A DNA stretch of 64,000 nucleotides, taken from the NCBI GenBank assembly GCA_947650915.1, contig CANSWY010000002.1, positions 1-64,000 of the forward strand. The letters run 5' to 3'. Below are positions 19,714-54,461 of the stretch, piece after piece (position 1 is the first letter of the stretch; each line of letters begins with the position of its first letter). The translations under genes were made by a program, and so were the position numbers. The stretch is from an uncultured Eggerthellaceae bacterium (GTDB taxonomy: Bacteria; Actinomycetota; Coriobacteriia; Coriobacteriales; Eggerthellaceae). Below the pieces are notes generated by a model, which did no database searches, was not told where the DNA came from, and saw nothing but the letters and a program-made list of their open reading frames with translations.

Positions 19714-21471
19714 TTACTCCACGCCCGCTGCCTTCTCCTTCGTGCGGCCCTGGCCGCCGAAGATGAAGAAGTACACGAACGGAAGGAGCATGGCGATCAA
19801 CATGATGGGGAGCGCCATGTCCGTCTTGGAGAAGCCGGGGATGGTCAGCGGGCAGACGATGCAGCCGATGAAGTTGATGACCACCACGGCGATCATGATC
19901 CAGAAGCGCACGTTGCCGTCCGTCTCTGAAAGCGGGTTCTCTTCCATGGACCGCTGCAGTTCGTCCATGGTCTTGCCGCCGGTGTTCTTGACGAACAGGA
20001 GCGTGCAGACCAGGCCGAGCACGAACGGGATGAGGAGCACGAGAACGACCATGGACCAGTTGTTGGACATGGTGCCGTTCACGTCATGCTGGAACATGGC
20101 CAGGCCAGCCGCAGCACCCAGAACGATGGAAGAGCCAGAGCCACCGAAGCGAGCGAACGCCTGGCACCAAGAGGTACCGGTGTTGCGCAGCGTGGTGGGA
20201 TAGGACTCCGGCATCAGCGGCTGAACAGCGGTGATAGCGTAATTCAGGCAGAAGCCGAAGAGCAGCATCAGGATGATGCAGGGAATGAAGTTGCCAGCAG
20301 AAGCGCCAGCCAGAGCCGCGCCGTTCACCGGAGCCTCGCCCGGGAACATGGGCACGAACACGGAGCAGGCGATGATGGCCACGATGCAGGCCACCCAGCC
20401 GACCCACAGCGCGCGCTTGCGGCCGATAGCGTCAGAGATGAAGCCGACGCAGATGTTGGACGCGATAGCGGCAACGTTGTTCCACGTCTGCAGGGTCACA
20501 GACTCAGCAGCGGTGAAGCCATTGCCCTGGAACCAGGTGGGGATCCAGGCATTCATGCCGTACACGCAGAACTGACCCACGAAGTACGCAGACCAGATGG
20601 CGCAGGTAGCGACGATGAACTTGCTGGAGAACAGAACCGCCGGGCCGGACTTCGCAGGCTTCGGAGGAACGATCATCAGGCTGGCGTCGAACTCCACGTC
20701 AACGTGACGGGTGGCCTTGACGATCTGGGAGAGGCGCTCGCAGGCCTTCTCCTTCATGCCATGGTTGGCGTACCAGTGCGGCGTCTCATGCATCACGAAG
20801 ATGAGGATGATGCCGTACACCACCGGCAGAGCGCCGATGAGGTAGCACACGCGCCAGTTCTCGATGGCTTCCGTGCCGTTGGCCAGCGTGATGGCGCCAT
20901 CGGTGAGGCCCGGGATGATGGGCGTCATGCTGGAGCAGATGGGAGCCGCCACCAGACCAGCGATGACCCAGCCCATGACCATGAAGGCCATGCCGCAGGT
21001 CACGAAGATGCCGCGCTGCTTCGAAGGCATGCTCTCGGAGAACACCGTGGTGACCACCGGGATGCAGGAGCCCACGCCGAAGCCGGCGATCAGGCGGAAT
21101 GCGCAGAAGAAGCCGTAGTCAGGCGCGAATGCCTGCGGCAGCGTGAACAGACCATAGAAGATGACCGCGATGGTCAGCGTCTTCTTGCGGCCGATGGCGT
21201 CGGACATGATGCCACCGACAGCGCCGCCGAGCACCATGCCCAGCAGGCCCCACGTGGTCAGAGAGCCGGTGAGAGCCGCGATGGGCTGACCAGAAGCGAT
21301 CTGCTCTGCGAAGAACGTGGGTGCAACATACGTGTTGGTAGAATTGACGATCATGAAGTCATAGCCGTCGAAGATCATGGCGAACGCCAGGATGACGAAG
21401 ACGACCCACGTGTGGCTGGAAATGCCAGCGCGGTCGATGACCTCAGATACTGTGAACTCTTTGCCGTCCAT
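19714..21471 (-). CDS. MFS transporter with two extra C-terminal helices
   Basis: A 585-residue secondary transporter of the sugar/aromatic-acid MFS type: helix 1 with GYDFMIVN, the A-motif loop GGIMSDAIGRKKTL, the matching half-repeat loop GFISDAIGRKRAL, and about 12 core helices. After residue 500 it adds a charged loop and two more hydrophobic segments (FWIMIAVVVINFIGC; LPIMLIAMLLPFVYFFIF), giving about 14. The ATG at 21471 has GGGGG upstream; the TTG one codon before is less likely. It is a single-gene unit with its own terminator. The substrate is unknown. Confidence 0.88.
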   Translation of the reverse strand: MDGKEFTVSEVIDRAGISSHTWVVFVILAFAMIFDGYDFMIVNSTNTYVAPTFFAEQIASGQPIAALTGSLTTWGLLGMVLGGAVGGIMSDAIGRKKTLTIAVIFYGLFTLPQAFAPDYGFFCAFRLIAGFGVGSCIPVVTTVFSESMPSKQRGIFVTCGMAFMVMGWVIAGLVAAPICSSMTPIIPGLTDGAITLANGTEAIENWRVCYLIGALPVVYGIILIFVMHETPHWYANHGMKEKACERLSQIVKATRHVDVEFDASLMIVPPKPAKSGPAVLFSSKFIVATCAIWSAYFVGQFCVYGMNAWIPTWFQGNGFTAAESVTLQTWNNVAAIASNICVGFISDAIGRKRALWVGWVACIVAIIACSVFVPMFPGEAPVNGAALAGASAGNFIPCIILMLLFGFCLNYAITAVQPLMPESYPTTLRNTGTSWCQAFARFGGSGSSIVLGAAAGLAMFQHDVNGTMSNNWSMVVLVLLIPFVLGLVCTLLFVKNTGGKTMDELQRSMEENPLSETDGNVRFWIMIAVVVINFIGCIVCPLTIPGFSKTDMALPIMLIAMLLPFVYFFIFGGQGRTKEKAAGVE

Positions 21472-42273: not shown

Positions 42274-44610
42274 TCAGCGTTTGTGCACGTACATGCTGAC
42301 GGATTCGAACACAGCACCGCTGTCATCAGCCACCATGGGCACGTCATGGTCTGCTTTGAAGCCTTGGTCAGGGCGCACCTCGTACGAATCCATCACCTCA
42401 GGCTTGCCGAATCCGCACGCGGACAGCCACGCCAGGTTCTCTTCCTTGGTGCGCGCTGCCTGGATGCTGTTCCCGATGGCCCGCGCCTCTTCGATGACCG
42501 CCTCCGGCCTCTGGCAGCTGGCGAACACCGTCTCCATGATCAACAGGCCGCCCGGCTTCAACACGCGCGCGAACTCTTCCAGCGCTTGTTCTTGGCTGGC
42601 GAAGAGCGTCATCACGTTGTTCACATACACCACATCCATGGTGTTCGTGCCCAGGCCAGCAGCCATGAGATCTTCCGGATACGCCACATGGAACTCCATG
42701 TTGTTGCCCTTGAGGCCCGAATCGTGCCAGGCGCGCGTGATACCGTCTGTGGATTCCTGCACGTAGGCCGGGCTCCAATCCACGCCGATGGCACGCCCAT
42801 TGTTGCCCACCATGGAAGAGATCTTGTACACACCGCGCCCACGCCGGCTACAGATGTCCAGCACCGTCTTGCCCCTCAGGTCAGACGCTGGCAGCAGCAT
42901 CTTGCAAATGGACGCGAACCCGTATTCGAACTGCTTGCCCGCGTAATACTGCTCAAGGAAGGCCGCATCCAACCGCCCAGACGCACCGCTTTGCGTCGTT
43001 TCCGCTCTCACTGCATCCTCCTTCTCCGAGACCATGCGCGAAAGCCCCACCGCCTGGGCCATGTCCAGCCCCGCATCCTTGGACGTCACCGGCTCATCAG
43101 CGCCCAGCGCCAGCTCACGCGCCCGCGCCTCCAGGCCTTCGCGGGCCGAATCCACCTGCAAGCCGTCCGCATGGACGTAATATGCATCACTCCCGAAGTG
43201 CGCGATGAAGTCAGCGGTGGAGCGCCGTGTGGCCAGCTCTGCCGCGAACACCAGCATCTCACGCGCGGAGAAGCACTCCTCCACGAACGCGAACGCGTGG
43301 TCCAGGGCCGCGGACGCCGCATCAGCCGCAGGCTCCAGCTTCGCCACTTCTGCCCCGTAAGCCTGCTGGATGAGAGCGAAAGCCGCCTCTCCCACCGTCT
43401 CCTTCGCCAACGAACAGGCTGCTGCCAGGTCATGCAGCAGCGCCAGCGCCAGCTTCTCCCGGCGCACCTTCACTGCCGCGACCGCGCCGGTGGACACCAG
43501 GCGTGCCAGATGGGCTTCGCGCGCGGCTGTCTTGGGCACCAGCGCCACGTCCACGGATTCGCCTGCCAGCAGCTCCGGCTTCACTTCCCGCAGCACATCG
43601 CGCACGGCATAGGCCACCGCTTCTGCATCCAGCACCTGCGCGCATTCCTGCGCCAGCGCGTCCAACAGGATGCCGATGAGCGCCACCCGCTCATCGAACG
43701 GCGCCGCTGCTGCCCGTTCGCGGATCTGCACGGGCGCAGCGCCCGCCAAGATGGCATCCACCTGGTAGTCCGAACGATACTTCGCGAACAGCGCGTAGTA
43801 CACGGTGAACTGATCTGCCACGTCCGCGTCGCGCACGAACTGGCTGACCAGACCCCCATCCACCGGCTTGCCCAGCTGCTCGTACAGCGCGATGACGCGC
43901 GCCAGGTCCTCCCAGCCGCGCGCGGTCACGAACGCCTTGCCGCCGCCCGGCTTGCCATCCACGCGATAGAAGCAATCCTTCTTCGCTTCCAGGAACGTGG
44001 TGACCGCCGGATGCAGCCCGTGTTCAGCCGCGTACGCGCGCCAGGCAGCGTAATCCGGCTCCACGTCCAGTTCACGCAGGCGGTCCAGGGTGACGATGTC
44101 GAACTCATGCACGCTGCGGTTGTACTCCGGCGGGTTGCCCGCGCACGCCACCACCCAACCATCCGGCACCTTGAATTTCCCGAACGTCTTGAACTGCAGG
44201 AACTGCAACATAGAGGGATACAGCGTTTCCGACACGCAGTTGATCTCATCCAGGAACAGGATGCCGCTGCGCAAGCCCGTGCGCTCCATGTAGTCATAGA
44301 TGGCCGCGATGATCTCTGACATGGTGTATTCAGAGGTGTCGAACTCCAGGCCTTCGAACGCGCGCCGCTCGATCCGCGGCAAGCCCAAGGCGGATTGGCG
44401 CGTGTGATGCGTCATGGAATAGGACACGATGCCGATGCCCAGCTCCTCGGCCACTTGTTCCATGATGGCGGTCTTGCCGATGCCGGGCGCGCCCAGCAGG
44501 AACACCGGCCGCTGATGGGCCGGTGGAATGACGAACATGCCCGCATCGTCGCACTCCAAGTACGCCTCGACGGTGTCTTTGATCTGTTGTTTCGCCTGCG
44601 TGATGTTCAC
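42274..44610 (-). CDS. MoxR-type AAA+ ATPase fused to a SAM-dependent methyltransferase
   Basis: A 778-residue fusion. Residues 1 to about 330 are a MoxR-like AAA+ ATPase: Walker A GAPGIGKT (40-47), Walker B ILFLDE (117-122), SALGLPRIERRA and the sensor region NPPEYNRSVHEFD. A helical, Ala-rich middle (about 330-540) follows. From about 560 a class I methyltransferase begins: motif I VLDICSRRGRG (usually VLDLGCGxG, so degenerate), motif II GVDWSP, MDVVYVNNVMTLF and RVLKPGGLLIMETVF, closest by eye to arsenite/UbiE-type enzymes. The frame is continuous. GGAGG precedes the GTG start. MoxR proteins remodel partners through vWA proteins, and the neighbour at 44696-46270 is one. Confidence 0.87.
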   Translation of the reverse strand: MNITQAKQQIKDTVEAYLECDDAGMFVIPPAHQRPVFLLGAPGIGKTAIMEQVAEELGIGIVSYSMTHHTRQSALGLPRIERRAFEGLEFDTSEYTMSEIIAAIYDYMERTGLRSGILFLDEINCVSETLYPSMLQFLQFKTFGKFKVPDGWVVACAGNPPEYNRSVHEFDIVTLDRLRELDVEPDYAAWRAYAAEHGLHPAVTTFLEAKKDCFYRVDGKPGGGKAFVTARGWEDLARVIALYEQLGKPVDGGLVSQFVRDADVADQFTVYYALFAKYRSDYQVDAILAGAAPVQIRERAAAAPFDERVALIGILLDALAQECAQVLDAEAVAYAVRDVLREVKPELLAGESVDVALVPKTAAREAHLARLVSTGAVAAVKVRREKLALALLHDLAAACSLAKETVGEAAFALIQQAYGAEVAKLEPAADAASAALDHAFAFVEECFSAREMLVFAAELATRRSTADFIAHFGSDAYYVHADGLQVDSAREGLEARARELALGADEPVTSKDAGLDMAQAVGLSRMVSEKEDAVRAETTQSGASGRLDAAFLEQYYAGKQFEYGFASICKMLLPASDLRGKTVLDICSRRGRGVYKISSMVGNNGRAIGVDWSPAYVQESTDGITRAWHDSGLKGNNMEFHVAYPEDLMAAGLGTNTMDVVYVNNVMTLFASQEQALEEFARVLKPGGLLIMETVFASCQRPEAVIEEARAIGNSIQAARTKEENLAWLSACGFGKPEVMDSYEVRPDQGFKADHDVPMVADDSGAVFESVSMYVHKR

Positions 44611-44654
44611 TGGACCACCTCCGATTCCATGGCGGATGCCTGCTTGGCTGACCC

Positions 44655-44678
44655 GTAGGGCAGGGGCTTGCCCCTGCC
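44655..44678. repeat. Short palindrome GTAGGGCAGGGGC-TTGCCCCTGCC
   Basis: GGCAGGGGC-like arms form a compact hairpin in the 85-base gap between the vWA and AAA+ genes. It looks like a REP-type extragenic palindrome and may be an mRNA stabiliser or attenuator within the operon. Confidence 0.55.
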
Positions 44679-44695
44679 GTTCGCTCAGAACCCTC

Positions 44696-46270
44696 TCACT
44701 CCAATTCTTCCTCTTCTATGACCACCTTCATGGCCCAGGGCGGCACGGGCGGTAACGGCTCCCCCTCATCCAGGAACACGAACGCCGCATCGAAATCCGG
44801 CGCCTTCTCCGGGAACTGCCCCAGACCGTCCGTGAAATAGATCAACCCCTTCAGCTCCGGCAGCTTGCCCGCTTTCCGCAAGCCTCGCACGTAGTCGAAC
44901 GCAGGGCGGAAATCCGTCCCGCCGAATCCACGCACCGTGAAGCCCTCCATCATGGCGTCCACATCCCGCAGATCCGCGATGCGCGTGTCCGCCTGCACGC
45001 GCGAATCCGCCTGGATCACGTGCACGCATACCTTGGACGCGAACGTTTCCGCACTCTTCAAGATGGCGAACGTGTGCTCCACGAATCGACGCACCAGCGT
45101 CTCGCGCACGGATTCCGAAGTATCCAACACGATGACGAAATCGCGCACCTTTTTGGTGTCCTGGTATTCCAGCGGCTCCACCAGCGGCATGTTGCCGTAC
45201 AGGTCAAGCCCGTGGGCGTAGTACACGTAGTCGAATTCATCCATGTTGACCTTCAGGTCTTCGGAGGTCACCATGAAGCTCTTGAGGAAATCCGCATAAG
45301 CCAGCCGCCGCCGATTCGCTACCGCCAGCGCTGCCATCAAATCCCCTGCATCTTCGCCGAACTGGGAGGAGAACGTCTCCAGGTCCATTTGCACTTGCCG
45401 CGCGACGTCCTCCCACTCCTCCTCGGCTTGGCGCTCCTCCTCTGATGCGCCCGGCTCCTGGGTCATGCCGGCGTCTTGGGCGGCATCATCTTCCTGCGCC
45501 GTGTCGGACTCATCCGAATCGGCCGCAGATTCCTCCAGCTGCGGCACCGTCTCTTGCGGAGGCTGCTCTTGCACATCCGACGGGTCATCCGCATGGATGC
45601 GCTCAGCCGCCAACTCCTGCTCGCCGTCCGCCGCATCATCCGCCGTCTGCGCCGGAGCGCCTTCATCCCCCGGCTGCGCGCCTGCCATCCCCGGCCACGC
45701 CGTGTGGTCGTCCCGTTCGAACAGCGCGCGCCAGTCGTTCACCTTGCTGCGCGTGAATCCCAGATGCGCCGTGCCCTCCGGTGCGCTCATGATGGCATCC
45801 AGCAGCTTGTACACCTTGCTGGGCGCCAGTGTCCCCGCATGCATGCGCACTTCGCTCACGGCTTGCTTGCGCTCCGCATCGCCTTCGCTGGTGAACCGCT
45901 GGCCGCAGATGTCCATCACCGCATTTTCCACGATGATGTCCGCGGTGAGGCTCCACGCCTCCCGATCCTGATGCGTCTTGTCGAACGGATGCCGGAAGAT
46001 GCAATGCATGACCAGATGCAGATAGTCCCGCACCGCTTCGTCACCGGATTCCTGGAAGCGCGCGATCACGCGATCCGGCTCATACAGCACACGGACGCCG
46101 TCCGTGGCGATGGGGTACGCGAAACCGGCGCGCACCGGCTCCAGGCCCATCTTCCAGAGCGCCAGGTCAAGAAAGCGGAACTTCAGCATCAGCTGCACGC
46201 GCGCCTCCTCCAGGATGTCGCGCCCCAAAGCGTCCTCCGCCTGACGCCGCTGCATCTTCTGATCCTGCAT
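44696..46270 (-). CDS. vWA-domain protein with N-terminal metallopeptidase-like domain (DUF2201 type), MoxR partner
   Basis: A 524-residue cytoplasmic protein. The N-terminal part has a zincin-like motif HLVMHCIFRH (His85, His89, His94) like DUF2201 proteins, though the catalytic Glu after the first His is Leu, so it is likely inactive as a protease. An acidic, Glu/Asp/Gln-rich linker runs from about 190 to 305. The C-terminal vWA domain has an intact MIDAS motif DTSES near residue 381 and the later GFGGTDFRPAFDYV. MoxR-vWA pairs act as chaperone and adaptor. GGAGG lies before the ATG at 46270. Downstream is the ATPase. Confidence 0.88.
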   Translation of the reverse strand: MQDQKMQRRQAEDALGRDILEEARVQLMLKFRFLDLALWKMGLEPVRAGFAYPIATDGVRVLYEPDRVIARFQESGDEAVRDYLHLVMHCIFRHPFDKTHQDREAWSLTADIIVENAVMDICGQRFTSEGDAERKQAVSEVRMHAGTLAPSKVYKLLDAIMSAPEGTAHLGFTRSKVNDWRALFERDDHTAWPGMAGAQPGDEGAPAQTADDAADGEQELAAERIHADDPSDVQEQPPQETVPQLEESAADSDESDTAQEDDAAQDAGMTQEPGASEEERQAEEEWEDVARQVQMDLETFSSQFGEDAGDLMAALAVANRRRLAYADFLKSFMVTSEDLKVNMDEFDYVYYAHGLDLYGNMPLVEPLEYQDTKKVRDFVIVLDTSESVRETLVRRFVEHTFAILKSAETFASKVCVHVIQADSRVQADTRIADLRDVDAMMEGFTVRGFGGTDFRPAFDYVRGLRKAGKLPELKGLIYFTDGLGQFPEKAPDFDAAFVFLDEGEPLPPVPPWAMKVVIEEEELE

Positions 46271-46292
46271 CCTCACCTCCCGCCCAGTCTCC

Positions 46293-46341
46293 GTAGCAAA
46301 GGCTTCAGCCTTTGCCTTTCGCAGGCTGAAGCCTGCGCTAC
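46293..46341. repeat. Paired REP-like palindromes
   Basis: GTAGCAAAGGCTTCAGCCTTTGC is followed after a CTTTC spacer by GCAGGCTGAAGCCTGCGCTAC. Each half is a small hairpin around GGCTTCAGCC or GGCTGAAGCC, and the outer GTAGC/GCTAC ends also pair. It sits between the LRR and vWA genes. Confidence 0.7.
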
Positions 46342-46379
46342 AACCAACACGCCGCCCGGAACCCGCGCAACGCCCGCCT

Positions 46380-48635
46380 CTACAGGCTGAAATCGAACGA
46401 ACGGACGCCGAACCGCATCCGCTTCACCTCCAACAGGTATCCCGTCATGGATGCATCCTGCACCTGCTGAACAGCCGAAATCACCTCATCTATATTCTCA
46501 GCTGACAATATACCCAGGTCCGCCAAGCGCCGCAACGAATCCCGATCGTCATGGCGCGCCATCTCCAGACAGATCCCACAAAGGCCGTTCCGCAGCACGC
46601 GTCGCGCCATATCCTGGCTGACCGGACCCATGAACACCGGATCCTCCAACCGCTGGATCAAGCGCACAGCTTGTTCGTGCACGCCCAACCCACTCTCGCT
46701 CAGCGCATCGAAACTGGATGCGTTGATGATGGCGTTGTCGTAATGTTCGAACAGCGCCTCTATGCTCACGAACGTGGGGACCGTGAGCGCCAGCATCATC
46801 TGCTGTTCGCTGCGGTCCGTCCGCGGCGGGAAGATATCGAACGCCGCATGGCCTTCAACAGGATCCGCCAGATCCACATGGATGTGCTCCAGCGGCGCAT
46901 CCACTGCAAGGCCGCGCGGCCCCACCGTCGTGATGCGGTCTGACAGATGCAGCTCTTTCACCTGCGACGCGCCGTTGAACGCGTAGGCGCAGATCTCATC
47001 CACCGCCTCCGGCACATGCACCGCCGCATCCGGCCCCACATAGATGACCACGCGCTCTGCTCCGTCATCCTTGCGCTCCAGCAACATGCCCTCATGCATC
47101 CGGAAACGCGCAGATGCCCCCGTCAGCACGATGGAATGCAGAGACGGGCCGCCTTGCCCATGATGCGCGCCCAAGGTGACCAGCGCGCGTGGCCCCAAGT
47201 GCTCAAGCCCAGCGGACAACTGCACCGTTTCGATGCGCGTGTCCAAGAACGCATCCCCGCCGATCCATGCCACCGTGTCCGGCACGTTCACGCGCACCAA
47301 TTCCATGCAGCCACGGAACGCCGCGCCGCTGACCTTCCACAGCCCTTCCGGCAAGCGCACTTCCCGCAGCTTCCGTGCGCATTCGAATGCTTGGCGCCCC
47401 AATTCCACGGTGCCGGGCAGCACCTCATAGGACATCGCATCCGGATCCATCAGGCGCACGAACCGCAAGCCTGCGCCATCGTGCTCATACAAGCCGCCTT
47501 GGCCATCGAACACGAGCCTGCCGCCATCGCTCTCAATGCCGAACGTGGCCCCTTCGCCCGAAAAGCGCACGTTCGTGCCATCAGCCACATGTGCGCCCAT
47601 CTCTTGCACGGAAGCAGGGATGCGCAGTTCAGCTAGGCCGCAGTCCTCGAATGCGGAAGGCCCGATGGATTCCAGGCCTTCATCCAGCTGCACCTGCGCA
47701 AGCTGGCGGCACCCGTAGAATGCTTTCTCTTGGATGATGCGCAAAGCGCTGGGCGCATGGAAACTGCGCAGGGCCGTGCCCGCGAATGCGAACGGCCCGA
47801 TGGCCTCAAGCGTTGAGGGCAGATCAACGGCAGACAGGCCCGCGAAGGAACTGAACGCCTTCTTGCCCAGCGCACGGCACCCATCGCGCACAGCATACGC
47901 ATCTGACGGCACGGCCAGCGCCGCCATGATGGACCAGTCCTTGGAGTACAGCGCGCGCCCATCCGTGGCCATGAAAGGATTGCTCTCCGCCACCTGGATG
48001 GATTCCAGATGGCTGTTGATGAAAGCGCCCGGCTCCACGTTGCGCGTGCCCGGCCCCACGACGAGCGTCTTCAGGTGCCCATGGTCGAACACGCGCGGCG
48101 TGATGGCCTCCAGGGCACCAGGCAGTTCCAGATAGGACAGCTTGTTGCAATAGCGGAACCAGTCCGCAAGATAGACCGACACCCCGGCCGGGAGCACCAC
48201 GCGCTCCAGCTGGCTGCATCCGCGGAACGCACAATCCCCCACCACGATGACGCTGTCAGGCACCGTGGCCTCCACCACGGACAGCAGATTCGCGCACGCC
48301 TCAGGCGCAAGCTCCAACACCGGATGCCCTTCGATCTGCGCCGGGATATCCAAGATGCGCGCCTGGGTCCTGCACCCCTTGATGCGCACGCTGGCACCGT
48401 CCAAGAGCACGTGCTCCCAAACGGTGCCAGCTTCATCCACCCATTCCAGCAGCTCTGATTCGCGCGCCGCCTCCAACTCCTCCGCCCGGATGGCGGCATC
48501 CTTGCGCGCGGCCAAGCGCTGCTCCGCCTCTACGGCCACGTCCCAGGTGGCGGTCATGTCCCCCATGACCGTGGGCGTGAACCCGCCGAAGCAGACGTCC
48601 AGCCTGCTCATGTCGATGCCCAGACTGACGCCCAT
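46380..48635 (-). CDS. BspA-type leucine-rich-repeat protein without export signal
   Basis: A 751-residue protein built largely of LRR_5 repeats, each with the pattern IGxxAFxGCxxLxxVxLPxxLxxI (for example VGDCAFRGCSQLERVVLP; IGPFAFAGTALRSFHAP; GRQAFECARKLREVRLPEG). About 15 such units run from residue 95 to 600; a helical C-terminal domain (about 630-751) ends in FGVRSFDFSL. LRR_5 proteins are usually on the surface, but no signal peptide, lipobox or anchor is present here, so it is probably cytoplasmic. It precedes the vWA gene in the same direction and may serve as a recognition module. Confidence 0.85.
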   Translation of the reverse strand: MGVSLGIDMSRLDVCFGGFTPTVMGDMTATWDVAVEAEQRLAARKDAAIRAEELEAARESELLEWVDEAGTVWEHVLLDGASVRIKGCRTQARILDIPAQIEGHPVLELAPEACANLLSVVEATVPDSVIVVGDCAFRGCSQLERVVLPAGVSVYLADWFRYCNKLSYLELPGALEAITPRVFDHGHLKTLVVGPGTRNVEPGAFINSHLESIQVAESNPFMATDGRALYSKDWSIMAALAVPSDAYAVRDGCRALGKKAFSSFAGLSAVDLPSTLEAIGPFAFAGTALRSFHAPSALRIIQEKAFYGCRQLAQVQLDEGLESIGPSAFEDCGLAELRIPASVQEMGAHVADGTNVRFSGEGATFGIESDGGRLVFDGQGGLYEHDGAGLRFVRLMDPDAMSYEVLPGTVELGRQAFECARKLREVRLPEGLWKVSGAAFRGCMELVRVNVPDTVAWIGGDAFLDTRIETVQLSAGLEHLGPRALVTLGAHHGQGGPSLHSIVLTGASARFRMHEGMLLERKDDGAERVVIYVGPDAAVHVPEAVDEICAYAFNGASQVKELHLSDRITTVGPRGLAVDAPLEHIHVDLADPVEGHAAFDIFPPRTDRSEQQMMLALTVPTFVSIEALFEHYDNAIINASSFDALSESGLGVHEQAVRLIQRLEDPVFMGPVSQDMARRVLRNGLCGICLEMARHDDRDSLRRLADLGILSAENIDEVISAVQQVQDASMTGYLLEVKRMRFGVRSFDFSL

Positions 48636-48644
48636 GACAAATGT

Positions 48645-48992
48645 CTACAGCAGCGGACCGCAGGCTTCCCACGGAGCGCCCGCCGGATTCAACGAACGGC
48701 GCGGCGCGATCTCATCAGCATGCATGATGCAGTACCGCATGCCCTTGAGCGTGACATACAGGCATGCGATCTCATGGCCGCTGCCCTGGTTGAACACCTC
48801 ATACGTGAGCATCTCACGATCGATCATGGGCTGGAGCACCGGATCGCCGATGACCTTCTCCAGCAGCATGTTCGTTGACTGGCGGCCCAGCTCATCCTGC
48901 TTGAGGGTGATGTTGTACAGAACCAGCTCCTGCTCGTCGGTCAAGCGGCCCAGTTCGTCGATCTCTTTCTGGATCTCTTCCTCAGTTGCCAT
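48645..48992 (-). CDS. Small hypothetical protein heading the LRR/vWA/AAA+ operon
   Basis: A 115-residue protein: an N-terminal coiled coil (EEEIQKEIDELGRLTDEQELVL) followed by a mixed domain (LYVTLKGMRYCIMHADEIAP). It is not recognised. The ATG at 48992 has AGGAGGAG upstream. Its stop is nine bases before the LRR gene start, so it should be co-translated with it. Confidence 0.65.
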   Translation of the reverse strand: MATEEEIQKEIDELGRLTDEQELVLYNITLKQDELGRQSTNMLLEKVIGDPVLQPMIDREMLTYEVFNQGSGHEIACLYVTLKGMRYCIMHADEIAPRRSLNPAGAPWEACGPLL

Positions 48993-49140: not shown

Positions 49141-49416
49141 CTACACGCCAACGTAGCCCTTCGAAGGATCGCTGTCACCAACGCCGATGCCGGTGTCCCC
49201 AGCCTCGTTGCCCGTGCGCTTCGTGGAGGTATACCCACCCCAAGCGCGAGCGATGAACTTGTCCTTCACCCAGAAGATCTGAGCCTTCATCAGGTCAGCC
49301 TGAGCAACGCCGCACTCTGCCATGGCTTCATCCTTGGACTTGCCAGCTGCGATCAGCTCATTCAGCTTGTCAGCAGCTTCGTTTGCGGGCATCGCCAAAA
49401 ACTCTTCTTTGGTCAT
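49141..49416 (-). CDS. Small hypothetical protein of the molybdopterin-enzyme operon
   Basis: A 91-residue protein, helical in its first half (KEEFLAMPANEAADKLNELIAAG; SKDEAMAECGVAQADLMKA) and Gly/Asp-rich with little predicted structure in the last 30 residues. AAGGAGG precedes the ATG. It is the third gene after the catalytic and partner subunits and is closed by a terminator, so it probably belongs with them, perhaps as a maturation or assembly factor. The family is not recognised. Confidence 0.7.
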   Translation of the reverse strand: MTKEEFLAMPANEAADKLNELIAAGKSKDEAMAECGVAQADLMKAQIFWVKDKFIARAWGGYTSTKRTGNEAGDTGIGVGDSDPSKGYVGV

Positions 49417-49504: not shown

Positions 49505-49921
49505 TTAGAGCTGGAAGAGCACCATCGGACGATCGAACTTCTTCATCTTTTCGATCATCTCGTCCAGAGTGCCGTAGTAGAGAGTGCCGGACTCTTCAAC
49601 CTGGCACGCGAGCGGACGCTGGCCGGCCTTGTCACCCTCGGGCCCGTAGTGCTTGGAGAAGATCTCCGTGGGGCACGGGATGTAGAACCATTCCCAGTTC
49701 TCGCCGCAGGTCTCGTCGCCGCCCTTGAAGAACGGGCCGACCTCGACCTCTTTGATGCCGAACTGGTCGATCGGAAGCTCAAACTCTTCCTTGCAGGCGA
49801 TTTCCGCGGCATGGTTGCCGGAGAAATACCGGTAGTCGCAAAGAAGGGCGTAGCGGGTACCGTCGTAACGCGGATCCTTGATAGCGGATTCGTACTGCGC
49901 TTCGATTGCGGGGTTAGCCAT
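49505..49921 (-). CDS. Dicluster-ferredoxin-like partner subunit that has lost most cluster cysteines
   Basis: A 138-residue protein following the catalytic subunit by 20 bases. By eye it aligns with the small electron-transfer subunit (4Fe-4S dicluster type) of DMSO-reductase-family enzymes: YALLCDYRYFSGNHAAEIACKE fits the usual CSGCHxCExACxxE block with Phe33, Asn36 and Ala39 in place of three ligands, leaving only Cys43. The second block, normally PTELCDLC, reads PTEIFSKH. The GTLDEMIEKMKKFDRPMVLF tail is conserved. It can hardly hold a standard cluster, and may now be a structural partner. GGAAG lies upstream of the ATG at 49921. Confidence 0.72.
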   Translation of the reverse strand: MANPAIEAQYESAIKDPRYDGTRYALLCDYRYFSGNHAAEIACKEEFELPIDQFGIKEVEVGPFFKGGDETCGENWEWFYIPCPTEIFSKHYGPEGDKAGQRPLACQVEESGTLYYGTLDEMIEKMKKFDRPMVLFQL

Positions 49922-49941
49922 TGATTTCACTTCCTTTCGAA

Positions 49942-52263
49942 TTAATCAGCATCGAGGCTGCGGACGCGACGAGCGTTGCACATAACGCCCTTGTAGGGTG
50001 CGCCGAATCCGAGCTTGCCGATGTTCATGTGCGGAACGAGGCTGTTGAAGTTGGACTTCCACACGCCGAACAGGTTGGGCTCTTCGCCGTCCTGCTCGGG
50101 GAACCACCAGCCGTGAGCGCAGTTCAGGATGCCCGGCTTCATGACCGGCGTGATCTCTGCCTTGAAGCGAGCCTCGCCGAACATGTTGTAAACCTCGACC
50201 CAGTCGCCCTCGGTGATGCCGTACTCAGCAGCGGTCTCCGGATTGATCTGGACCCACGGCCACGGATCGATCTGGCGCAGCGACGGCACATGACGGTGCT
50301 CAGAGTGGAAGGAGCTGTAACGACGAGAACCAGACGTCGTGATCAGCGGGTACTTCTCCTTCTCTTCGTCCGTACGGAGCTCGGAGAACGGAGAGTAGTT
50401 GGGCTCCTCGTAGTAAGGCAGCGGATCCTCGCCCCAGGATTCGTAGAGGATGGAGTACGCCTCGATCTGGCCCGTGATGGTGTTGAAGCCAGGCTGGCCG
50501 TCGAAGCGGAGCAGGCCCTTATCATACTTCTCATACTCGAAGCCATGAGCACCAGGCTGGTAGATGCCGAGCTCCTGGAAGCTGTTCCAGTCGTAGCCCA
50601 GCTCCTTCAGCTGGTCAGAGTAGAAGTCCTGCGTAGCCTGCTCGAGCAGATCCCAATCCAGCTTGTGCTCGTCAGCCGGCTTGTACCACGGATACCACTC
50701 CGGGTTCAGGCGCTGGCCGAACACGAGGCAGATCTGCACGTCAGACATGCACTCGCCAACCGTGAGAGCCTTGTTCATGGGGCCCATGAACACGGTGTTG
50801 CGGCCGTAGTGCGTGAGCACGATGCCCGTGTGCTCAGCCCAGGTGGCCATCGGGAGGAAGTAATCGCCCACGGCCATGGCCGTGGGGGTCATGGTGATGT
50901 CCTGGATGACCACGAACTCCAGCTTCTGCAGAGCCTTGTGCCAACGCTTCGGCTGCGCAGAGCAGGTGGGGGTCAGGAAGTTGGAGCTGTTGAACCAACC
51001 CATCTTCAGAGCATAGGGCTCGTCAGATTCCATGGTGTTCAGCGTCTCGTCGGGCTGGGTGGTGGCCATGCCCGTGGACAGTCCCGGCCAAGCAGCAGCG
51101 CCGATGCGCTTCTCCCACACTTCGTCAGACATAGCGCCGCGCTGGTTCATGCGCCACTTGCCCAGCAGTGCAGACGGCGGGCCGAGGGTCAGGCCGCCCG
51201 GACGGTCGATGGAGCCGGACAGACCAGCCAGGATGATCATGGCCTGGGACAGCTGCACACCGTTCTTGTTCTGGTCGAACGCGAGGCCCCACGCCCAGCC
51301 GATCGGGCGCTCCGTGCCGATGATGTGGGCAGCGCGCTTGATGGCCTCGACCGGAACGGTGGTGATCTCAGAGACCTTCTCCACCGGGTACTCAGCCGCG
51401 CGAGCCTTGACCTCGTCCAGACCGTAGATCCAGTTCTCAGCGAACTCGTGATCGTACTCGTCGTTCTGGAACATGAGGTTCATGATGCCCAGCGCCATGG
51501 CGGTGTCGGTCTGAGGACGGACCTGCAGCAGGATGTTGCCGCGGTGCGCACCCACCCAGGTGACGCGGGGATCGATGTCGATGATGTGCGTGCCCAAACG
51601 CATCATGTCCACCAGGCAGTGGCCGAAGAAGCCGTCGCCGTTGGAGGGCAGGGGCTCCTTGCCCCAGAGCACGACCCACTTGGAGAGGGTGTACTGCGGG
51701 TCGATGTAGGAGCCGGGCAGGTGGCCTGCGTAGTCCAGCTCAGGGTAGCCGGCGCCCAGCACGTAGTCAGAGATGGAGCAGCGCGGGCCGTAGCAGGACC
51801 AGCCGGACTGGGTGTAGCAGCAGTTAGGGGACTGCAGCACGGAGAACGTCAGAGCGTAGTAGAAGATGCAAGCCTCACGGCCGGTGCCACCGAAGCAGAC
51901 GATGGATTCAGGGCCGTAGGTGTTTTGGAAGTAACGCACCTTCTCGCAAATGGTGTCGATAGCCTCGTCCCAAGTGGTGCGCTCCCACTTGTCCTTGCCA
52001 CGATCCTCGAACGCGCGCTTCATCGGGTAGATGATGCGGCTCGGCGCGTAGGTGTACTCGCGCAGAGCAAGGTTCATGGCGTTGACGCGGCCCGTGGTGA
52101 TCGGGTTGTCGTCGTCACCCTCGATGCGGATGAGCTCGCCATCCTTGGTGATGACCTTGACGCCATACCCAACGGGGTGAGATCCCGGAGGAGACCACGT
52201 GTTGGAGCGTGTAGCGACGGTGCCGTCTTCGCGCTCGACTCGCCACTCTTTGCTGTAAGCCAT
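49942..52263 (-). CDS. Molybdopterin oxidoreductase (DMSO reductase family) without the N-terminal 4Fe-4S ligands
   Basis: A 773-residue catalytic subunit of the Mo/W-bisPGD family: the N-terminal domain, the YPMKRAFEDRG and WDEAIDTICEKVRY region, the molybdenum-pocket segment QSGWSCYGPRCSIS, IDIDPRVTWV and the C-terminal cofactor domain (INPETAAEYGITEGDWVEVYN). The N-terminus reads SNTWSPPGSHPVGYGV, where related enzymes have Cys at the positions of Asn21, Ser28 and Tyr33, and the fourth ligand (usually GRLC) is GRVN (Asn61). So the FS0 cluster should be absent, as in pyrogallol transhydroxylase alpha. There is no Tat signal, so it acts in the cytoplasm. The start at 52263 has AAGGA. The substrate is unknown. 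Confidence 0.88.
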   Translation of the reverse strand: MAYSKEWRVEREDGTVATRSNTWSPPGSHPVGYGVKVITKDGELIRIEGDDDNPITTGRVNAMNLALREYTYAPSRIIYPMKRAFEDRGKDKWERTTWDEAIDTICEKVRYFQNTYGPESIVCFGGTGREACIFYYALTFSVLQSPNCCYTQSGWSCYGPRCSISDYVLGAGYPELDYAGHLPGSYIDPQYTLSKWVVLWGKEPLPSNGDGFFGHCLVDMMRLGTHIIDIDPRVTWVGAHRGNILLQVRPQTDTAMALGIMNLMFQNDEYDHEFAENWIYGLDEVKARAAEYPVEKVSEITTVPVEAIKRAAHIIGTERPIGWAWGLAFDQNKNGVQLSQAMIILAGLSGSIDRPGGLTLGPPSALLGKWRMNQRGAMSDEVWEKRIGAAAWPGLSTGMATTQPDETLNTMESDEPYALKMGWFNSSNFLTPTCSAQPKRWHKALQKLEFVVIQDITMTPTAMAVGDYFLPMATWAEHTGIVLTHYGRNTVFMGPMNKALTVGECMSDVQICLVFGQRLNPEWYPWYKPADEHKLDWDLLEQATQDFYSDQLKELGYDWNSFQELGIYQPGAHGFEYEKYDKGLLRFDGQPGFNTITGQIEAYSILYESWGEDPLPYYEEPNYSPFSELRTDEEKEKYPLITTSGSRRYSSFHSEHRHVPSLRQIDPWPWVQINPETAAEYGITEGDWVEVYNMFGEARFKAEITPVMKPGILNCAHGWWFPEQDGEEPNLFGVWKSNFNSLVPHMNIGKLGFGAPYKGVMCNARRVRSLDAD

Positions 52264-52568: not shown

Positions 52569-54461
52569 ATGAATGCTGCTCATACCGAAGGGGGACGGGT
52601 GAGTGCTCCAGAACCGCGCATCACGGTGAGCATCAAGCGGAGCGCAGATGGCTCTCGCGCTACCGGTGAACTGAATTCGCTCTCATTGGGCTTCGGAATC
52701 TTCCAGGTCTGGCTCTTCATGGCCGTATACAACTCGGCCAAGATGTTCGACGCCTCAGCCTTGACCCCCTCTTTCCCTTATCTGCCGCCCGCGCTGTCAG
52801 ACATCGTGCTCATATCGTTTCTGCTGGTGGGAGGATTGTGCCTCATCATCATCGCGGCCACCAATCAGCTCTTCCTCAAGTTCTACGTCAGCAAACGCGC
52901 GCTCTTCGCGGCCACGGTCATCTGCTGTGTGGGAACAGCGCTCCTCTATGGAGGGTGCCTTGAAGGAGCTGGCACGGCGTTCGCCATCCTTTCCGGTGCC
53001 GTGATGGGCTTCGGTTCCAGCTTGCTGCTGGTCATCTGGGGCACCACGTTCGCCCGCTTCCAGTTCGCCACCATCGTGTTGAACACGGCCATCTCCTACG
53101 TGGTGGGCATCGGCATCTCCGTCATCTGCGCGAACTGGGTCCCCTCGCCCATCAGCGGCCTGATCACCGTGCTGCTGCCGTTGGCATCCATGCCCATCCT
53201 GCTCAAGCTGATCCCGCGTCCGTATTATCAACGTCACGAAGAGCCCATCTTCCAGCCGCTGGCTGCCGACAGCGTGAACGAATCATCATTCCTCATCCGC
53301 TTCGGCTTTCCGGTGGTCATCGTGGGCATCACGCTGGGGGCCTTGCGCAGCATCTGCATCGGACAGGTGCTCCCCGACGGCAGCCTGACCGTGCAGCTGG
53401 TCTTCGGGCTATCCTGCATCTGTTCGCTGGTCATTTACATCATGGCCATCGCGCTCACCAAGCGGGATCTGTTCTGGGACACGCTGTTCCGCGTGGTCAT
53501 GCCGGTCACCATGGCAGGCATCGCCAGCATCGCGCTGCTCACCAGCTCCTACGACGTGCTGGCCGCCTTCTGCATCTCCATGGGCTATGTCTGTCTTGAG
53601 ATCATGTTCTGGGTGTTCTTCGCGGGCATCGCGCAACAGTTCCGCATCTCCCCCATTTTCGTGTTCGGCATCGGGCGCGGCTTGCTGGAGTTCGGCAGCA
53701 TTTTCGGGTCCATAATGATCACCGCCATCGTGCAATCGAACATGAGCGAGATGGGGCTTTCGCGCTCTGCTCTGGTCTTGGCCGTGACGCTGGCAATGGG
53801 ATACGCGTTCCTGCCGCGCTACCGTGAGATCATGGCCATGGTGAAGAAAGCGCACCAGCCTCATGAGCGCACTGAAGCTGCCGTGCAGATGTGGGACACC
53901 ACAGGCCAGCAGCATGACCAGGCGAATCTAGTAGGACGCCCGCTCATGCCAGAGGCCGCCGCGCTCTCAACCGGCCCGCTGGGTGCCCATGGAGGGAACG
54001 CCATGCACATTGCTGCAGCGGCCATACCTCCTGCACCCCCTGCCGCCTCCGCTCCCGTTGCGCCCGCAGCTCCTGCTCCTGCTGCAACTGAGGCAGCGCC
54101 TGCCGCAGAAGCCGATGAGACAGAAGATGAGAAGGGCAGCTTCCGGCTTCGCTGCGAAGAGTTATCAGAACAGTACCTGCTCTCAGCGCGCGAACGCGAA
54201 GTGCTGGTGATCCTGGCGAAGGGGCACAACGCCACATTCATCCAAGAGCAGCTCTGCGTCTCCAAAAGCACCGCGAAGACGCATATCAACCACATCTACA
54301 AGAAGATGGACATCCACACCCAGCAAGAGCTGCTGAACATGGTGGAAGATCGTCCGCGCCTCTCCAAACGCAAGGCCAACAAAACGAAAGCGGCCGCCAA
54401 AGCAGCCGCCCCTGCCGCGCCGAAAGCCAAGGGCATCCGGGCGGATATCTTCAAAGACTGA
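52569..54461 (+). CDS. LuxR-family regulator on a 12-helix membrane domain
   Basis: A 630-residue membrane-bound transcription regulator of the type common in Eggerthellaceae. About 12 hydrophobic segments fill residues 40-420 in an MFS-like domain, followed by an Ala/Pro-rich linker (about 470-515). A LuxR helix-turn-helix (538-589: LSAREREVLVILAKGHN, VSKSTAKTHINHIYKKM) follows, and then a Lys/Ala-rich tail resembling histone H1 tails. It probably senses a small molecule in or across the membrane and controls the divergent molybdoenzyme operon. The start may be the ATG at 52569 or a GTG at 52599, which has AAGGGGG before it. Confidence 0.88.
   Translation: MNAAHTEGGRVSAPEPRITVSIKRSADGSRATGELNSLSLGFGIFQVWLFMAVYNSAKMFDASALTPSFPYLPPALSDIVLISFLLVGGLCLIIIAATNQLFLKFYVSKRALFAATVICCVGTALLYGGCLEGAGTAFAILSGAVMGFGSSLLLVIWGTTFARFQFATIVLNTAISYVVGIGISVICANWVPSPISGLITVLLPLASMPILLKLIPRPYYQRHEEPIFQPLAADSVNESSFLIRFGFPVVIVGITLGALRSICIGQVLPDGSLTVQLVFGLSCICSLVIYIMAIALTKRDLFWDTLFRVVMPVTMAGIASIALLTSSYDVLAAFCISMGYVCLEIMFWVFFAGIAQQFRISPIFVFGIGRGLLEFGSIFGSIMITAIVQSNMSEMGLSRSALVLAVTLAMGYAFLPRYREIMAMVKKAHQPHERTEAAVQMWDTTGQQHDQANLVGRPLMPEAAALSTGPLGAHGGNAMHIAAAAIPPAPPAASAPVAPAAPAPAATEAAPAAEADETEDEKGSFRLRCEELSEQYLLSAREREVLVILAKGHNATFIQEQLCVSKSTAKTHINHIYKKMDIHTQQELLNMVEDRPRLSKRKANKTKAAAKAAAPAAPKAKGIRADIFKD

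Follow-up and report, generated by a model that had tools for sequence, protein, structure and literature searches.

How does a molybdenum enzyme of the DMSO reductase family obtain electrons if both it and its ferredoxin-like partner have lost the residues expected to hold iron-sulfur clusters? The question is raised by two adjacent genes in the stretch of DNA analysed here (the window, 64,000 nucleotides on contig C2 of a 1.98 Mb, Eggerthellales-type genome), where an open reading frame check placed both genes exactly as first described:

49942..52263, minus strand: catalytic subunit, 773 aa, Mo-bisPGD family, very probable orthologue of Gp Hcdh / Unk-9A (Pfam, orthologues, fold model)
49505..49921, minus strand: small subunit, 138 aa, dicluster-ferredoxin homologue, very probable orthologue of Unk-9B (1 of 8 cluster cysteines kept)

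The small-subunit gene starts 20 bases after the end of the catalytic gene on the same strand, likely at the ATG at 49921 (MANPAIEAQYE...) and not at the upstream GTG at 49930, and a purine-rich, ribosome-binding-like stretch lies upstream of each start codon. The catalytic subunit belongs to the DMSO reductase family by its molybdopterin and dinucleotide-binding domains (Pfam Molybdopterin, 6e-22; Molydop_binding, 2e-19) and by a retained metal-ligand residue, the putative Mo ligand C157, which is invariant in 103/103 alignment rows and lines up with the Cys that binds the metal in acetylene hydratase. The family is much expanded in this genome (G000, 2 Mb), which encodes 22 molybdopterin-dinucleotide-binding proteins.

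Re-reading of the sequence agrees with the preliminary description that the four FS0 positions of the catalytic subunit, cysteines in relatives, are N21, S28, Y33 and N61, and that the context around them is retained (TRSNTWSPPGSHPVGYGV...TTGRVNAMN). Two further changes were absent from that account: a fifth Cys position is also lost (N64; Cys in 60/69 other family members), and M63 replaces the basic relay residue two positions after the last FS0 Cys, where the cluster-less clade has Met or Leu and 68/68 scorable other family members have R or K. None of the five FS0-region positions of the catalytic subunit is a Cys, so that an acetylene-hydratase-type [4Fe-4S] site is missing, and the proposal that the electron wire is gone is borne out by a loss more complete than was claimed. 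It is important to note that the 'FS0' of relatives is itself a non-canonical motif of 3-5 Cys, and its status as a cluster site is uncertain, because a review describes Gordonibacter-type enzymes as having no Fe-S motif in the catalytic subunit (PMC11574389). Other cysteines (C148-C149, C132, C216, C434, C512) are invariant or near-invariant in the cluster-less clade while rare elsewhere; the vicinal C148-C149 sits near the putative Mo ligand C157 in primary sequence, and a thiol redox role for such clade-specific cysteines is possible.

Unlike the FS0 case, the loss of cluster ligands from the small subunit reads unambiguously from its sequence. The substitutions reported at the outset are present, with FSGNHAAEIAC for CSGCHxCExAC and FSKH for CDLC, and a third motif is gone as well (LACQVEES where CVxHCxA is expected); all three Cys motifs are lost and 1/8 ligands is left. 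The two [4Fe-4S] cysteine sets (8 Cys) of a Gordonibacter-type small subunit are likewise down to 1/8 across the clade. The dicluster ferredoxin framework proposed for this protein nonetheless holds: BLAST gives ~35-42% identity to dicluster ferredoxins (E down to 1e-20), the AlphaFold model (mean pLDDT 85) has the Fe-S subunits of polysulfide reductase and formate dehydrogenase-N as its top folds in the PDB (probability 1.00 and 0.99, with weak E-values of 0.005 and 0.04), and the BLAST and fold matches rule out that the protein is unrelated to dicluster ferredoxins. Pfam and NCBIfam returned nothing usable for it.

The double loss is neither chance nor decay, because the same replacement recurs in pairs from many genomes. 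In a protein search over 100 relatives, complemented by a scan of named species genomes, 33/96 adjacent catalytic/small pairs combine the FS0 pattern 'NSYN' with 1/8 small-subunit Cys, and the small subunits of the remaining 63 all have 8/8. Cluster-less pairs occur in Gordonibacter pamelaeae, Gordonibacter sp. 28C, Paraeggerthella hongkongensis, Ellagibacter isourolithinifaciens, Raoultibacter timonensis, several Adlercreutzia, a Slackia and many uncultured lineages, with catalytic orthologues 80-97% identical to the window's enzyme; one further member (L277) has 0/8 small-subunit Cys. With dN/dS at 0.04-0.09 for the large and 0.005-0.23 for the small subunit, the double Fe-S loss is kept under purifying selection across many Eggerthellales genera, and gene decay or assembly error is ruled out by these low ratios and by conservation in 33+ pairs.

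In a tree computed without the FS0 region the NSYN rows form a single clade (SH-aLRT 100), whose neighbours are Sporomusa-type pairs (C-D-C-C) and then S-D-C-C and C-E-W-N rows. Since the small subunits of the eroded-FS0 neighbours (S-D-C-C and C-E-W-N) are intact, the loss began at FS0 and reached the partner's clusters last; the double loss had a single origin, after stepwise FS0 erosion. An N-D-A-P enzyme from Raoultibacter (L113) lost FS0 separately, its placement within the NSYN clade being ruled out by an AU test (p = 1.6e-6). It is part of a separate FS0-less family of pairs (L113:9971-12265, L271, L274, L276, L286, L287; N-D-A-P or similar) with an intact dicluster small subunit and an O3-like gene (see below) downstream.

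Among solved structures, acetylene hydratase is closest to the catalytic subunit both by sequence (PDB 2e7z, E 1.7e-64) and by fold (TM 0.83/0.88 for an AlphaFold model of pLDDT 91; all fold models are of single chains), and it shares with the window's enzyme the aligned Cys metal ligand. Acetylene hydratase itself is a tungsten enzyme that has a [4Fe-4S] cluster but lacks a small subunit. Pyrogallol-phloroglucinol transhydroxylase (PDB 4v4c), which had been put forward as precedent, does combine an FS0-less catalytic subunit with a ferredoxin-like partner, as in the window's pair, and to that extent the parallel stands. Kinship does not: the transhydroxylase is distant in sequence and not among the phmmer matches of the catalytic subunit at 1e-3, and sequence, fold and tree all place the window's enzyme alongside acetylene hydratase and the catechol dehydroxylases. 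The small subunit of the transhydroxylase retains its clusters, whereas that of the window has lost 7/8 of its cluster ligands.

The pair most resembles a characterized catechol dehydroxylase. As characterized by Bae et al. 2024 (PMC11585353), Unk-9, or Gp Hcdh, pairs a 770-aa catalytic subunit with an 'accessory subunit'. Its genes are found in Gordonibacter, P. hongkongensis RC2/2 A, E. isourolithinifaciens DSM 104140 and R. massiliensis, beside a gene for a LuxR regulator that shares 44% identity with the regulator of E. lenta Hcdh, a TAT-bearing protein of 1193 aa. We matched the window's family to it by exclusion and synteny, not via an accession. Among the best 30 matches in G. pamelaeae 7-10-1-b, the NSYN enzyme alone combines a length of 770 aa (L067/L168; L067:10001-12310, with the small subunit adjacent at L067:12334-12690) with near relatives in two species, an orthologue of 95% identity in P. 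hongkongensis and one of 90% in E. isourolithinifaciens. The runners-up have a match in one or the other but not both. The species distribution agrees with that published, the Raoultibacter examined here being R. timonensis and the published one R. massiliensis. Compared full-length, the LuxR encoded near the G. pamelaeae enzyme shares 44.5% identity with a LuxR from an Eggerthella genome, and ~7 kb from the latter lies a TAT molybdopterin ORF that encodes exactly 1193 aa from its second ATG; these agree with the published Unk-9R, HcdR and El Hcdh and support the Gp Hcdh identity. By length, species distribution and LuxR synteny, the window's family is very probably Unk-9/Gp Hcdh. The catalytic subunits of the window and of G. 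pamelaeae are 87-88% identical, and the two pairs have in common a two-subunit family, species distribution, LuxR neighbour and 770-aa size class, with no structural difference between them.

Purified Gp Hcdh from G. pamelaeae dehydroxylates hydrocaffeic acid with methyl viologen/dithionite (kcat 28.3 per min, Km 0.24 mM) and contains Mo at about 1:1; its deletion abolishes hydrocaffeic acid dehydroxylation and hydrocaffeic-acid-induced ATP production (PMC11585353). The same study reports it as the catechol dehydroxylase with the highest transcription in human gut metatranscriptomes. Methyl viologen and dithionite are in vitro donors and no guide to the electron route in vivo. We found no statement in main texts that Gp Hcdh is without Fe-S ligands, and the word 'iron' is absent from the main text of PMC11585353.

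Several neighbouring genes may bear on the function of the pair:

52569..54461, plus strand: membrane LuxR-type regulator with C-terminal GerE domain, divergent from the pair (Pfam GerE 4.5e-11)
49141..49416, minus strand: O3, 91-aa orphan protein directly downstream of the pair (locus comparison)
48645..48992, minus strand: O4, 115-aa orphan protein (co-occurrence among 100 relatives)
46380-48635, minus strand: LRR protein (within the block 42274..48635)
44696-46276, minus strand: VWA/DUF2201 protein (within the same block)
42274-44610, minus strand: AAA+ (MoxR-like) - ArsM-like methyltransferase fusion (within the same block)
19723..21471, minus strand: MFS transporter, aromatic-acid/H+ symporter type (homology, locus comparison)

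The LuxR-type regulator is a probable substrate sensor. The transporter is nearest to the aromatic-acid/H+ symport family, with matches to the PcaK and MhpT models too, and is the only such homologue in the window's genome; it is the probable substrate importer because about 14 other loci carry its orthologue next to the pair. Hydrocaffeic acid, a coffee-derived compound, would by orthology be the substrate in the window's organism as well. The substrate could nevertheless differ, because the regulator shares only 40% identity with its LuxR counterpart next to the G. pamelaeae orthologue, the transporter lies 28 kb from the pair, and a small zinc-ribbon or rubredoxin-like protein (MCFRPA...CPxCGK...CPFCK), encoded beside cluster-less and Sporomusa-type pairs (L056:9593-9841, L086:14614-14745 and others), was not found in the 64-kb window.

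Nearly every orthologous locus of sufficient length has O3 3' of the pair, and the gene also adjoins the pairs of FS0-eroded relatives, among them the independent N-D-A-P lineage; it was not found beside the Sporomusa pairs or the examined paralogues of the window's own genome. Strict uniqueness to FS0-less enzymes is ruled out, since O3 adjoins (S/T/C)DCC pairs and, weakly, one CDCC pair (G011). It has no Pfam or NCBIfam match, and against the PDB matches only repeat, effector or designed proteins. A divergent O3 subfamily occurs elsewhere; in two Raoultibacter loci (L280, L282) a divergent O3-like gene lies downstream of MFS, LuxR and pyrogallol-transhydroxylase-like genes. O4, for which Pfam and NCBIfam gave nothing usable, is present in 23/23 relatives whose small subunit is cluster-less and in just 2 more of the 100 (Fisher p about 1e-20, relatedness ignored). 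The LRR/VWA/AAA+ block often adjoins the pair (21-23/34 loci), and its AAA+ and ArsM-like parts occur in 21/23 cluster-less-pair genomes and 3 others among the 100 relatives. An obligate partnership is ruled out, P. hongkongensis and Raoultibacter being without the fusion, though AAA homologues are widespread; that the block, part of which is MoxR/VWA-like in layout, serves maturation is a guess.

Comparison with other known systems places the wiring loss in context. The Gordonibacter-type catechol dehydroxylases (Dodh, Cldh, Eadh1/2) have, like the window's pair, two cytoplasmic subunits without a TAT signal and belong to the same DMSO reductase clade, but are described as having an Fe-S small subunit that transfers electrons (PMC11887054), while the window's small subunit is without 7/8 of the ligands. 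The Sporomusa/Selenomonadales pairs (L084-L090, L115), whose catalytic subunits are 54-57% identical to the window's, often share with cluster-less loci the same aromatic-acid transporter type and the zinc-ribbon neighbour, but have 8/8 small-subunit Cys, FS0 as C-D-C-C, and no O3. The catalytic protein of Rhodobacter-type DMSO/TMAO reductases (DorA, TorA, BisC) is without Fe-S, as is predicted for the window's enzyme; these reductases have no ferredoxin-type partner, and their metal ligand is Ser, not Cys.

We consider it probable that the pair is a Gp Hcdh/Unk-9 orthologue acting as a two-electron reductase without an Fe-S chain, its Mo fed directly by a soluble donor. In the proposed mechanism the pair would be induced via the LuxR-type regulator and the substrate supplied by the aromatic-acid transporter, whose role, like those of O3 and O4, we infer. 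The cytoplasmic Mo-bisPGD enzyme would then use two electrons to remove a hydroxyl from hydrocaffeic acid, presumably the para one as in catechol dehydroxylases. With FS0 ligands, basic relay residue and both small-subunit clusters lost, no Fe-S chain would remain; the protein itself is predicted to be free of clusters, and the small subunit would most likely be a cluster-free scaffold for structure or docking. The Mo may be reduced directly by the soluble donor, or by a donor that docks on the small subunit, O3 or O4. Direct donation to Mo is suggested by analogy with the Fe-S-free Rhodobacter-type DMSO reductases.

Of the two readings offered by the preliminary description, direct electron uptake from a soluble donor agrees with this proposal; the other was redox-neutral chemistry, in which a hydratase, isomerase or hydroxyl-shifting enzyme would draw on no external electrons and have lost its wire as needless. 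The completeness and conservation of the loss, and the non-redox acetylene hydratase as closest solved relative, fit such an enzyme, but the family matches Gp Hcdh, a net two-electron reductase that works with methyl viologen/dithionite and supports ATP production. Because hydrocaffeic acid dehydroxylation consumes two electrons, redox-neutral chemistry is not the family's answer, and we regard it as most improbable here. A transhydroxylase-like reductase would still achieve net reduction of hydrocaffeic acid, with a phenolic or other organic co-substrate re-reducing Mo in the active site in place of a protein donor. Pyrogallol transhydroxylase functions without FS0 by just such means, and in Raoultibacter transhydroxylase-like genes have some divergent O3-like genes nearby; we nevertheless think this unlikely, as no co-substrate is known and the growth and ATP effects look like respiration with an external donor (PMC11585353).

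Two further explanations concern the proteins themselves. Clusters might be retained on other residues, for instance the clade-new catalytic-subunit cysteines C106, C123, C148 and C216, and the clade has indeed gained several invariant or near-invariant Cys; these form no recognisable motif, several fall in predicted strands or helices, and the small subunit has a single conserved Cys (none in L277), which makes retention distinctly improbable. That the small subunit is a decaying relic beside a catalytic subunit active alone might be read from the loss of 7/8 ligands, but is scarcely credible for a protein 69-96% identical in most genera (dN/dS 0.005-0.23), whose replacement residues are themselves almost invariant and whose gene lies next to that of the catalytic subunit wherever the orthologous locus is complete. 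Direct supply of the Mo by a soluble donor therefore remains our preferred reading. Somewhat more tentatively, at a little under even chances, these pairs may represent a respiratory-type Mo reductase whose ferredoxin subunit has turned into a cluster-free partner, with Fe-S-free electron entry, with O3 and O4 as donor-docking or maturation partners, and with FS0 erosion plus an O3-type gene having arisen at least twice.

The pair would accordingly be a local version of a known gut hydrocaffeic acid dehydroxylase, and its apparent lack of Fe-S wiring is what is new. Current accounts of Gordonibacter-type dehydroxylases assume electron delivery through an Fe-S small subunit (PMC11887054), which, to judge from its sequence, the window's member cannot provide; where a gut respiratory enzyme of such high expression gets its electrons therefore becomes a direct, testable question. 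Heterologous expression may also require accessory parts, for which O3 and O4 are new candidates. The relatives also form a natural evolutionary series, from 4 Cys through 3 Cys plus Asp and 1 Cys to 0 Cys, and then to the disappearance of the partner's clusters, in which it may be studied how a redox enzyme sheds its wiring.
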